In this document: positions 14,102 through 18,111 of the stretch, one piece after another
Layout: each line of letters begins with the position of its first letter
Position numbering within the stretch: the stretch's first letter is position 1
Virus record (IMG/VR): IMGVR_UViG_3300044695_004645
Span: 1-20,629 of that record
DNA from: a virus
DNA length: 20,629 nt
Strand: one strand, 5' to 3'
Translations under genes and position numbers: made by a program
Notes under the pieces: generated by a model
Databases searched by the model: none
What the model was told of the DNA's origin: nothing
The model's input: only the letters and a program-made list of their open reading frames with translations

Positions 14102-14518
14102 ATGGCTACATTCTCGGCAGTTGCCGGAACCGTCTTCAAGTACACCGTCACCGCGACCCTCACCACGATTCCCGGCGTCGGTTCGATGTCCTTCAGCGGT
14201 GGCGACAAAAACGATATCAACGTCACCTCCATTGATGACGAAACGGAAGTATTCATCCCTGGCCGCCGCACCGCCAAGGAACTGAACTTCCCCATGTTCT
14301 ATGACCCGGCCGATGCGGGCCAGGTGGCCATGCTGGCCGCCTACGACGCCTCCAGCCAAACCCCGGTCGCCATGAGCATCATCGACGACGACGCGGGCGA
14401 TTGCACGCTGACCTTCAGTGGCTACATCAAGAACATGACGAAGAAATACGACCTCGACGGCGCGGTTATGTTCGATGTCGTCATCAAGCTGACCACCGCG
14501 ATTACCACCACCGCCTAA
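14102..14518 (+). CDS. Major tail tube protein
   Basis: 138 aa from ATG 14102 behind AAAGGAG. The protein is beta-rich: FSAVAGTVFKYTVTATLTTIPGVGSMSFSGGDKNDINVTSIDDE, then VFIPGRRTAKELNFPMFYDPAD and a closing strand series VAMSIIDDDAGDCTLTFSGYIKNMTKKYDLDGAVMFDVVIKLT. This matches the tail-tube fold of siphoviruses (gpV-like), whose hexameric rings stack into the tail tube. The next gene is a tail assembly chaperone, which is the invariant neighbour of tube genes. Its own leader with hairpins suggests high expression. The stop TAA is part of the next gene's ribosome site. Confidence 0.85.
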   Translation: MATFSAVAGTVFKYTVTATLTTIPGVGSMSFSGGDKNDINVTSIDDETEVFIPGRRTAKELNFPMFYDPADAGQVAMLAAYDASSQTPVAMSIIDDDAGDCTLTFSGYIKNMTKKYDLDGAVMFDVVIKLTTAITTTA

Positions 14519-14527
14519 GGAGGCGCA

Positions 14528-14941
14528 ATGATCGACCCTGTAACCCCCGCCACGCTTGTGCCGTGGCGGGGGAAGAGTTACCCTCTGCAGCTCACGAACG
14601 GCTGTCTAGCCATGGCCGCCGGCGAGCTGGATATCAACATCCTGGAGGGAGGGCCGGGCTCGCTGTTCACGAAGCCCGCCTACTACCAAAACGGCGTGCT
14701 TCTGTATGCGATCCTTCGCCAGAAGTTCCCTGCGTCGGAAGTGTCGCTCATGGAGTGCCTGGACGCGGTAACCGGTGAGAAATCGGACTTCTACGCCGAT
14801 GTCCTGAAAAAGCTGGTGGCTGAACTGGCGCCAGCGATCCGGCGAATTATGAAGCTTGAAGCCGAGCCCACGGACCGCCCTACGACAGACGCGAATTCTG
14901 GCGCCGACTCTGGGCCAGCGCTCGCGTCCACATCGGACTGA
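14528..14941 (+). CDS. Tail assembly chaperone, short (G-like) form
   Basis: 137 aa from ATG 14528, with TAAGGAGG (14516-14523), the best Shine-Dalgarno in the window, formed partly by the previous stop codon. The conserved part is residues 1-112: TLVPWRGKSYPLQLTNGCLAMAAGELDINILEGG, then LLYAILRQKFP and DVLKKLVAELAPAIRRIMKLE. The last 25 residues are Thr/Ser/Ala-rich and look non-conserved. This is the G-like product of a siphovirus tail chaperone gene, which keeps tape measure protein soluble during tail assembly. A second product by -1 frameshift is listed separately. Confidence 0.82.
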   Translation: MIDPVTPATLVPWRGKSYPLQLTNGCLAMAAGELDINILEGGPGSLFTKPAYYQNGVLLYAILRQKFPASEVSLMECLDAVTGEKSDFYADVLKKLVAELAPAIRRIMKLEAEPTDRPTTDANSGADSGPALASTSD

Positions 14942-15105
14942 CCAGCGAAGAATTTTGGGAGATGACGCCCGGCCAAACCTGCGATCTATTCACGATTGCG
15001 GGCGAGGCGAATGGTTCCGGCTTAGACGATGGCGAAAAACTGGGGAGCAAAATTCGACGCGGCGCGGCTGCGAGAGGCGAAAGCCGCTTTCCGCGCCATC
15101 GCTGA
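14860..15105 (+). CDS. Tail assembly chaperone T-like extension, reached by -1 frameshift
   Basis: This open frame is -1 relative to the chaperone gene and opens just after a TGA at 14857-14859. It runs to TGA 15103-15105 and has no ATG, GTG or TTG before 14962. It nevertheless encodes the family-typical YDRREFWRRLW and GLTSEEFWEMTPGQ, as in GT-type chaperones. The shift must fall within 14860-14941. No canonical XXXYYYZ heptamer is present. The best single-tRNA site I see is CGC-CCT-ACG (14876-14884), where Pro on CCT can re-pair with CCC. That would give a fusion of about 192 aa. The T part binds the tail tube in lambda. Confidence 0.7.
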   Translation, partial: SRAHGPPYDRREFWRRLWASARVHIGLTSEEFWEMTPGQTCDLFTIAGEANGSGLDDGEKLGSKIRRGAAARGESRFPRHR

Positions 15106-15634
15106 AGTCGTTGACCCCGGCGGCAAGCGCGTCGGGGCTGCGTGGGAAAATGCTCGCGCTGAAGTGCAAGACGGATTCCGGTCCGCTGCGCTGATTGTCC
15201 GTGATAAAGCGAGGGCTGGCGCAGCATCAACGGGCGCGCCGAAGCGGCTGTATTCCGGTGATAAACCGGCCATCTTCGCATTCTCCGATTTCAACGCGGC
15301 CACCGACGACAAGCGGAAGCGGGCCGTGCTGGTCGGGATGCGTACCGGGCTGTCTACGCACGCGAAAGACCCAAACCTCTACATCAATTGGTCTCCAAAA
15401 TCAAACAGGCGTAAAAAAGACGGCAGTAAGATCCACTACCGATGGATGGGCTACGAAATGGGCAACGGCCTATCAATGTCCCTGGCAACGCTTTTTGAAA
15501 AAGGCACCCTAGACCGCCGTATCAAGCCAGGCCGGTTCTTCCGCTCGGCCATCTTTTCCACCCGTTCCACCGTCGCCCGCCTCCTCACCTCCGCCTACGC
15601 GAAAGCCGTGGGCACCATCAACCGAATCAAATAA
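15029..15634 (+). CDS. HK97-gp10-like tail/neck component
   Basis: 201 aa from ATG 15029, which has only a weak ribosome site and lies inside the frameshifted chaperone extension (77-nt overlap). The N-terminal half is helical and basic (FDAARLREAKAAFRAIAEVV, then EVQDGFRSAALIVRDKARAGA). The middle has KRKRAVLVGMRTG and HYRWMGYEMG, and the C terminus PGRFFRSAIFSTRSTVARLL. That order, ending in an RFFR-type motif and helix, suggests the HK97 gp10 family. That family is normally encoded between head closure and DUF3168 genes, and here that slot is empty. Function in tail completion is inferred. It overlaps the tape measure start by 1 nt (TAATG). Confidence 0.55.
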   Translation: MAKNWGAKFDAARLREAKAAFRAIAEVVDPGGKRVGAAWENARAEVQDGFRSAALIVRDKARAGAASTGAPKRLYSGDKPAIFAFSDFNAATDDKRKRAVLVGMRTGLSTHAKDPNLYINWSPKSNRRKKDGSKIHYRWMGYEMGNGLSMSLATLFEKGTLDRRIKPGRFFRSAIFSTRSTVARLLTSAYAKAVGTINRIK

Positions 15635-18111
15635 TGGCCAACGAAATCACATACCGTATCACCGGCGACCCCACCAGCTTTAAGTCTGCGATGTCGCAGG
15701 TTGAGGCGGCAACGGTATCGACCACGGGGAAAGTCAACGCCGCCTCGCGTAGCGTTGAAAGCCTCGGGGCGAAGCTGTCTTCCGTTGGCGCGTCGATGAC
15801 GCTGGGGATCACCGCGCCGGCTGTGGCGCTGGGAGTAGCCGTTGTCAAGACTGCGGCTGACATAGAAGCTTTGAAAGCTGGGCTGGGCGCCGTCACTAAG
15901 GAATCCGGCTCGCTCGAAACCCAACTTGCACGCCTCAAGGAAGTGGCGAAACTTCCTGGCCTCGGGCTGAAAGAGGCTATTCAGGGCAGCACGTCACTGC
16001 AGGCAGCCGGATTCTCCGCGCAACTCGCGGAACGCTCGCTGAAGGCATTTGGGAATGCGCTCGCCACCGTTGGCAAAGGGAAAGCTGAACTCGACGGCGT
16101 GACGCTGGCGCTGTCGCAGATCGCCTCGAAAGGCAAGATCAGCGCCGAAGAAATCAACCAGCTTGCCGAGCGCGTTCCGCAGATCCGCGTAGCGATGAAG
16201 GATGCCTTTGGCACCGCTGACACGGAAGTGCTGCAAAAGGCGGGCATTGGCGCCGAAGAGTTTGTAACCAAAGTCGTCGCGCAACTCGAAAAGCTGAAGC
16301 AAGTCACCGGTGGAACGAAAAACAGCTTTGAAAACCTGGGCGATGCGGTGACGCAGGCAGCCGAGCGCGTTGGGCAGAAGCTCCTGCCGACCGTTACGGC
16401 GGTGATCCCGAAAATCGAAGCCATGGTAACCGCGGCGGCCGACGGCGTGGACGCATTCACCCGCCTGTCGCCGGAAGCGCAGAATCTCGCGTTGACGTTG
16501 GGCGGCGTTGCTATTGCGGCGGGTCCGGTGATTTCCGTTATCGGCAAGGTGTCCGCTGGCATCACGTCCATGCAGACCGTCGCGGGCGCAGCTGGCGCGG
16601 CTATGGTGGGGCTATTCGCCGTCACGCTGGTGGCGGCCGTGGCGCAGACGCTTTCGAGCATCGACAAGCTCAACGAAAAATACAAGGCGCTGAAAGAGTT
16701 TCAAGACCGCCTGAAGACCGGGCAACAGGATCTCATTAACGGATTCAAGGACGACGGCAAGGCCCTGGGCAACGGCGCGAGTATCTCCAGCGGTGGGCTA
16801 TTCGACCAGCCGGCCAGCGCGGCGAAGCGGTTTGGCATTGATCTAAAGGCGCTGTCTACTGAACTTGGGCTATTCACTGGCGAAACGAAAAAAGCCGAGC
16901 CACCGGTGAAGGCACTAGGCGCAGCCGTTGAAAAGGCGTCGAACATCATCAAAGTGGCCAGCGTCGGGCAACTGGTCTACGTCGAATCACTAGAGCGCGT
17001 TAAGGCCGCGATGAGCAAGGTCAAGGACGTGATGTTCGAGTACCAAATGGCGGGCACGGTACTTGGGAAAACCATCGACACGCACCCGGCTATTCTCGAC
17101 GCCGCAACTCTTGGCGCGCAGGAATACGCAGCGCGATTGCGGGACATCCGGCGCGAGCTGGAAAACATGCCGGCGCCGCGCGTTGAAATCGTCAACCAGG
17201 GTAACCTACGCCGCGGCTCCGTCTTCGAGACGGACGATATTCTCGGCTCCGCATCGTCGCGCAACCAGGCGCAGCGCGTAACGCAGGCGGAAGCGGACCT
17301 TGCGCGAATCAAGCAGCTCAATGCCGAAGGCAAAGCCACCGGCAACGACGTCATCACGGCGCAGCAAAACCTGAAAAAAGCCATGGAAGAAACCGGGCGC
17401 GCGGCTACCACCAGCGGCAAGGCTCAAACCAAGGCCATGCAGCAAGTTTCCACCGTCGTGACCGACCTCTCCCGCGGAATCGCCGGGATCATCTTCGATG
17501 GCGGCAAGTTCGGCGACATGCTCCAAAAGGTTGCCAAGCAGGCCGGGCAGGCCATCACGCGCGAGCTCATCGAAGGCGCGCTGTCGAAGCTGTCGAAAAA
17601 ACTCCTCGATGTTGGCGGGCTCTTTGGAACCGTTTTCGGCGGCGGCACGGGCGTGATTAAATCGGCTGTTCCTGGCGTGACCGCCGTTGGGCTGGAAAAC
17701 GGCGGGCTTGGAAATCTGCCGGGGCTAGGTGGCGGTATCGGCGGCGCAGCATCGGCCGCGTCTTCCGGCCTCGCTGGCATCATTGGAGCCGCTGGCTCTG
17801 TCGTTTCGGCTATTTCCGGCGTGATCGGAAACTTCCAGTTCATGGCGATGAACAAAACGCTCGACCTCATCGAGCACGAAGTCCGCTTTTCTCAAATCCA
17901 CCTTCTCAACACTCTCAACAAGGCCAACGAATTTTGGCCATACATGAAATCCGTTTGGGAATCTCTGATCCGCATGGAAACCGCTGGCGGATTTGGTGGC
18001 GGCGGCGGAACGGTCAACGTATCCATGGCCGGCGCCTACCTCATGAGCGATGCCCAGATGGGCGACTTTGCAGACCGCTTGGCGCGGTTCCTGAAGGCTC
18101 GGGGTATCTAG
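15634..18111 (+). CDS. Tail tape measure protein
   Basis: 825 aa from ATG 15634. The N terminus (ITYRITGDPTSFKSAMSQVEAATVSTTGKV) and the segment LPGLGLKEAIQGSTSLQAAGFSAQLA belong to the tape-measure N-terminal domain family. So does ISAEEINQLAERVPQIR. Hydrophobic stretches lie at about 54-72 and about 286-340, as expected for a protein that inserts into the host membrane during DNA ejection. Long helices follow (about 345-620), and a Gly/Ala-rich segment is at about 669-730. At roughly 0.15 nm per residue, the usual relation would predict a tail of about 120 nm. Its place after the chaperone and before the hub gene is standard. Confidence 0.93.
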   Translation: MANEITYRITGDPTSFKSAMSQVEAATVSTTGKVNAASRSVESLGAKLSSVGASMTLGITAPAVALGVAVVKTAADIEALKAGLGAVTKESGSLETQLARLKEVAKLPGLGLKEAIQGSTSLQAAGFSAQLAERSLKAFGNALATVGKGKAELDGVTLALSQIASKGKISAEEINQLAERVPQIRVAMKDAFGTADTEVLQKAGIGAEEFVTKVVAQLEKLKQVTGGTKNSFENLGDAVTQAAERVGQKLLPTVTAVIPKIEAMVTAAADGVDAFTRLSPEAQNLALTLGGVAIAAGPVISVIGKVSAGITSMQTVAGAAGAAMVGLFAVTLVAAVAQTLSSIDKLNEKYKALKEFQDRLKTGQQDLINGFKDDGKALGNGASISSGGLFDQPASAAKRFGIDLKALSTELGLFTGETKKAEPPVKALGAAVEKASNIIKVASVGQLVYVESLERVKAAMSKVKDVMFEYQMAGTVLGKTIDTHPAILDAATLGAQEYAARLRDIRRELENMPAPRVEIVNQGNLRRGSVFETDDILGSASSRNQAQRVTQAEADLARIKQLNAEGKATGNDVITAQQNLKKAMEETGRAATTSGKAQTKAMQQVSTVVTDLSRGIAGIIFDGGKFGDMLQKVAKQAGQAITRELIEGALSKLSKKLLDVGGLFGTVFGGGTGVIKSAVPGVTAVGLENGGLGNLPGLGGGIGGAASAASSGLAGIIGAAGSVVSAISGVIGNFQFMAMNKTLDLIEHEVRFSQIHLLNTLNKANEFWPYMKSVWESLIRMETAGGFGGGGGTVNVSMAGAYLMSDAQMGDFADRLARFLKARGI

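Follow-up and report, generated by a model that had tools for sequence, protein, structure and literature searches.

A predicted -1 frameshift at a lone C_CCT tetramer in the tail assembly chaperone genes of uncultured phages

Comparison of a viral contig record of 20,629 bases (IMGVR_UViG_3300044695_004645, analysed over its whole length and called the window below) with related contigs points to a lambda-type pair of tail assembly chaperone genes, in which a -1 slip at the tetramer C_CCT, ahead of an RNA hairpin, would produce a GT fusion protein; we give this reading a probability of about 0.86. The majority of ribosomes would stay in the zero frame and make G, a protein of 137 aa. A minority would pause at the hairpin and back up by one base with tRNA-Pro on CCU (14879-14881), whereupon the tRNA would re-pair with CCC (14878-14880), UAC would be read next, and translation of the T-like frame would follow, yielding a fused GT product of about 192 aa. 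Like gpGT of lambda, such a fusion would connect tail tube and tape measure.

The gene pair and its surroundings

The G-like reading frame (14528-14941, plus strand, zero frame) lies between the gene for the tail tube protein (14102-14518, plus strand; Pfam Phage_tail_3, E 8e-9, or Phage_TTP_11; PHROG 158) and that for the tape measure protein (15634-18111, plus strand; Pfam TMP_3, E 1.5e-18), with the head genes (portal, capsid and terminase) upstream of the tail tube gene. Because the order is tail tube, G/T and tape measure, the pair sits where a lambda G/T tail assembly chaperone is usually found. In the -1 frame an open stretch begins at 14860, just after a TGA at 14857-14859, and extends to a stop codon ending at 15105, and by the positions of the two frames the overlap is 82 nt long (14860-14941, plus strand). 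Its product over 14860-15105 begins YDRREFWRRLWASARVHIGLTSEEFWEMTPGQ, and the T-like extension itself (14881-15105, plus strand, stop included) runs for 74 codons past the slip; in this -1 frame 14881-14913 codes for YDRREFWRRLW and 14935-14970 for GLTSEEFWEMTP. An earlier note on the window had placed this extension in the -1 frame and concluded that a -1 shift was needed, a view borne out by comparison with relatives.

T is separated from the tape measure gene by one more reading frame (15029-15634), and the T frame continues into it, past the ATG of that frame at 15029. Over 15029-15105 relatives differ at position 3 of this next frame and not of T; thus the C-terminus of T is probably unconstrained.

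The T-like product of the window matches Phage_TAC_6 weakly and below the cut-off (E 0.007). Among related loci, the T parts of L040 and L079 pass the TAC_6 cut-off, and that of L084 passes the cut-off for Phage_tail_T (lambda T). On the G side, L079 matches Phage_TAC_12 and some homologues match Phage_TAC_11 (best E 3.6e-4); the G protein of the window has no significant match in Pfam or in a fold search of the PDB, and its fold matches to named chaperones are weak. In an AlphaFold model of G (mean pLDDT 80) order ends at residue 112 and residues 113-137 are disordered, so that the slip, at codon 118, falls in the tail beyond the folded domain of the model.

The candidate slip site, its conservation and its hairpin

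The 82-nt overlap holds no XXXYYYZ heptamer, in phase or otherwise, as the earlier note had reported. Three runs of three identical bases occur in it, and only CCC at 14878-14880 is so phased as to allow a -1 slip, the zero frame there reading CGC CCT ACG. The tetramer C_CCT (14878-14881, plus strand) is accordingly the sole Z_ZZN site of the overlap that is in phase and has cognate re-pairing in the -1 frame. This is the site at which the earlier note had proposed a move of tRNA-Pro from CCT to CCC, and its choice is upheld by the uniqueness of the run, by a flip in substitution phase between 14872 and 14886, and by enrichment of C_CCT among relatives. The same note had called the site atypical, which is right in that a heptamer is missing, but C_CCU belongs to a defined class of Z_ZZN -1 slip tetramers with activity in E. 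coli, as described in the main text of PMC4066793, and the site is therefore not bizarre. Some shift-prone tetramer is expected by chance within about 27 codons with a P of about 0.41, which is unsurprising taken alone; the weight of the C_CCT evidence lies, on sequence grounds, in its conservation among relatives and not in its mere presence.

Conservation was gauged at 48 analysed loci, falling into 35 clusters at 70% G identity, that were found in searches with T-protein patterns as queries, so that the slip site was not selected for. Comparison of the overlap among related phages, which the earlier note had put forward as a check, brackets the switch to 14872-14886, as set out below, and finds C_CCT at the homologous junction in 19 of the 35 clusters, usually 16-22 codons ahead of a conserved LG motif. 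From the upstream G reading frames 2.4 would be expected (p=1.7e-8, with coarser clusters 3.5e-7 at 50% and 6e-4 at 40%), and these p-values are optimistic because the clusters are related to one another.

Representatives of 11 clusters carry C_CCT with no canonical heptamer on either side (the window, L038, L039, L040, L044, L045, L049, L069, L084, L100 and L125). Elsewhere the tetramer is extended 3' to CCCTTTN (L012, L083, L115, L119, L134 and L088) or, among cluster representatives, 5' to GGGCCCT in L079 and AAACCCT in L082, and some members of the L100 cluster likewise have one or other of the latter. Junctions with AAACCCT are those of L082, L104 and L106, and junctions with GGGCCCT those of L079, L105, L108 and L109. 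L012 aligns to the window without gaps, its CCCTTTG being the same site as CCCTACG. Versions with C_CCC are also seen (GGACCCC in L070 and L126, AAACCCC in L131), consistent with the equal shiftiness of C_CCU and C_CCC in E. coli.

The codon preceding the slip codon is GAC at 15 of 25 C_CC(T/C/A) junction sites (L040, L044, L045, L049, L069, L084, L085, L100, L115, L119, L125, L126, L134, L135 and L088), where 0.116 is expected among NNC codons (p=1e-8); in the window clade it is CGC, not GAC. GAC also stands ahead of CCCTTTN and CCCAAAN sites, where it lies outside the slip motif, and for this reason a tandem site was rejected as the explanation of the recurrent GGACCCT. The preceding GAC may act through the nascent Asp-Pro or through the E site.

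Among GenBank phages no relative was found by DNA or by G protein. The T queries recovered there one distant Syntrophomonadaceae phage, with a canonical CCCAAAC, and two Microcystis phage records, the one examined having a different layout. Bacterial genomes yielded no relatives.

Downstream of the tetramer, a 41-nt hairpin is predicted at 14888-14928 (plus strand; -22.5 kcal/mol, z -3.3, matched in stability by 2 of 200 shuffles), giving the Z_ZZN site a putative 3' structure after a spacer of 6 nt from CCT. The stem is longer in L009, in L038 another hairpin likewise begins 6 nt past CCT, and in L039 the onset is at about the same place. Mean predicted pairing over 13 C_CCT clusters climbs to 0.91 at +6 from CCT, and over 11 A-type heptamers it is 0.80-0.88 at +6 to +7 from the end of the heptamer. 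This predicted register suggests that the slip motif ends with CCT, with peptidyl-tRNA-Pro moving around translocation. Changes in the hairpin among relatives are too few for covariation and none is compensatory, and part of the hairpin is under T coding constraint. The stretch TTCTGGCGNCGACTCTGGGC (14895-14918) is almost unchanged in L012, L038 and L039 despite G identity of 45-53%, a conservation that seems greater than T coding alone would need. The earlier note, right about the site, had overlooked both the hairpin and the canonical heptamers built on CCT in distant relatives.

Across the family, a sequence resembling a Shine-Dalgarno (SD) element is enriched ahead of the junction (mean rank 0.19 against 0.5 expected) and lies 6-22 nt upstream of the slip site in L012, L045, L069, L085, L115, L117, L122, L127, L132 and L133; the window has no such SD-like upstream stimulator (rank 0.54).

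In fine mechanism we infer a slip that would involve either tRNA-Pro alone or an imperfect tandem move on a degraded heptamer, C_CGC_CCT, by tRNA-Arg (CGC to CCG) and tRNA-Pro (CCT to CCC) together. The canonical AAACCCT and GGGCCCT at the junction in relatives favour the tandem move, as does a hairpin register that fits CCT as the final codon of the motif, but re-pairing of CGC as CCG leaves mismatches at the second and third codon positions, the codon before the slip codon varies (CGC, GAC, AAC, GGC, CCC), and the favoured GAC precedes CCCTTTN too, where it can have no part in the motif. We consider the tandem move unlikely; it is in any case a sub-variant of a slip at C_CCT, for the site is identical and only the number of tRNAs differs.

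Position of the frame switch

A viral-contig search with G found 18 contigs, all from other metagenome records, in four divergence groups with G protein identities of 100/98, 88, 85 and 52-53%, and the -1 arrangement is kept in all 18. This arrangement, its conservation and the location of the switch can be read from the aligned sequences themselves. Between the window and L007, all substitutions from 14809 to 14872 fall at codon position 3 of the zero frame, and all those from 14886 to 14952 at position 3 of the -1 frame. L003 fits this pattern save for one change at 14938, and L009 follows the same trend upstream, where a deletion near 14873 makes its register less certain, and also downstream save for two exceptions, at 14938 and 14942. 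Across the T-like extension, relatives vary chiefly at third positions of the T frame. A -1-frame TGA (14872-14874) arises in L007 and L008 by the change at 14872, right before CCG CCC TAC, so the shift must lie after it, and in L049 and L084 a zero-frame TAG stands one codon past CCT, so the shift there must precede it. Three independent tests, namely phase change, conservation and hairpin, place the frame switch at C_CCT.

A switch elsewhere in the overlap, or a +2 move or bypass, might be entertained given that the overlap spans 82 nt and that the fusion product is predicted; selection, however, confines the switch to 14872-14886, an interval whose sole re-pairing site is C_CCT, and such routes seem improbable.

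Separate production of the T-like part, from an internal or coupled start, is highly improbable. The reading frames do overlap, and in some tailed phages two chaperone reading frames are expressed separately (PMC7302621), but in the window clade and most relatives no ATG, GTG or TTG precedes the conserved core in the T frame. This agrees with the earlier note, which had seen no usable start; the first such codon in the window is the ATG at 14962, within the EFWEMTP motif. In a more distant locus, L128 (L128:1898-2830), moreover, the G-like and T-like parts share one open frame, apparently a natural fusion that needs no frameshift, which supports a GT fusion as the product. On these two grounds an internal start for T was rejected.

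A one-base sequencing or assembly error, with G and T truly one reading frame, was considered because the source is a viral contig record, and had been named in the earlier note as a possible refutation, but it is itself refuted by the relatives, since the arrangement is common to 18 contigs of other records at four levels of divergence, the phase switch is clean, and L007 has a stop in the -1 frame.

Known shift sites and what the family may offer

Lambda gpG/gpGT resembles the pair described here in the order of tail tube, G, T and tape measure, in a -1 shift near the end of G and in a short T extension. The lambda slip site is the canonical heptamer G GGA AAG, whereas in the window the C_CCT tetramer stands alone and the fusion is predicted. 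Frameshifting of -1 type in tail assembly chaperones is already known and is conserved (Xu, Hendrix and Duda 2004, as described in PMC5009743), and in lambda the long form is minor, with a G:GT ratio of 30:1 (PMC5009743).

The Z_ZZN class is likewise known. According to the main text of Sharma et al. (2014, PMC4066793), tetramers rank in E. coli as A_AAG >> U_UUC > U_UUU > C_CCU = C_CCC > A_AAA for -1 shifting, and C_CCU was tested with the IS3 pseudoknot, in a construct. C_CCU is thus shift-prone in E. coli given a 3' stimulator, as is predicted here, but the natural IS1 and IS3 tetramers named in that text are A_AAG, U_UUU, U_UUC and A_AAA. Counting against the slip is the weakness of such tetramers, the best six giving 0.26-5.6% when a pseudoknot was present and close to background when it was absent, so that a strong stimulator is required (PMC4066793, main text). 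By analogy with lambda, a low percentage would suit a chaperone pair that makes little of its long form. From the relatives together with the published activity of the C_CCU tetramer, we infer that the slip occurs, that it is inefficient and that the hairpin plays a part in it.

Overlaps with no XXXYYY heptamer are also reported in the PRFect survey of SEA-PHAGES tail chaperones (PMC10885494), although a lone C_CCT does not appear to be covered by any of the eight backward motifs named in its main text. Shifts of Listeria phage at CCC_UGA and CCC_UCC (PMC5009743) similarly move tRNA-Pro between CCC and CCU in a structural gene, but these are +1 and that of the window is -1. What looks new, from the sequences compared, is a natural slip at a single codon, C_CCY, that is conserved in phage tail chaperones and often follows GAC; C_CCU is unnamed as a natural site in the main texts of PMC4066793 and PMC10885494, which does not prove priority.

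C_CCU would then be a slip codon rarely seen in nature and yet kept across a family of uncultured phages. The chances seem about even that in a large, mostly uncultured siphophage group single-codon C_CCY, commonly GAC_CCY, is the standard chaperone signal, and that heptamers have come and gone about a tRNA-Pro slip that is itself conserved. If true, C_CCU tetramers would have a conserved use in nature, and the upstream Asp codon would contribute something further. Gene callers and frameshift finders based on XXXYYYZ, as most are, would miss or truncate the chaperone of the window. The family also forms a natural series, with CCT alone, last in a heptamer or first in a heptamer, and thus the share of the second tRNA in -1 slipping, and the reason for the preference for GAC, can be asked about directly.
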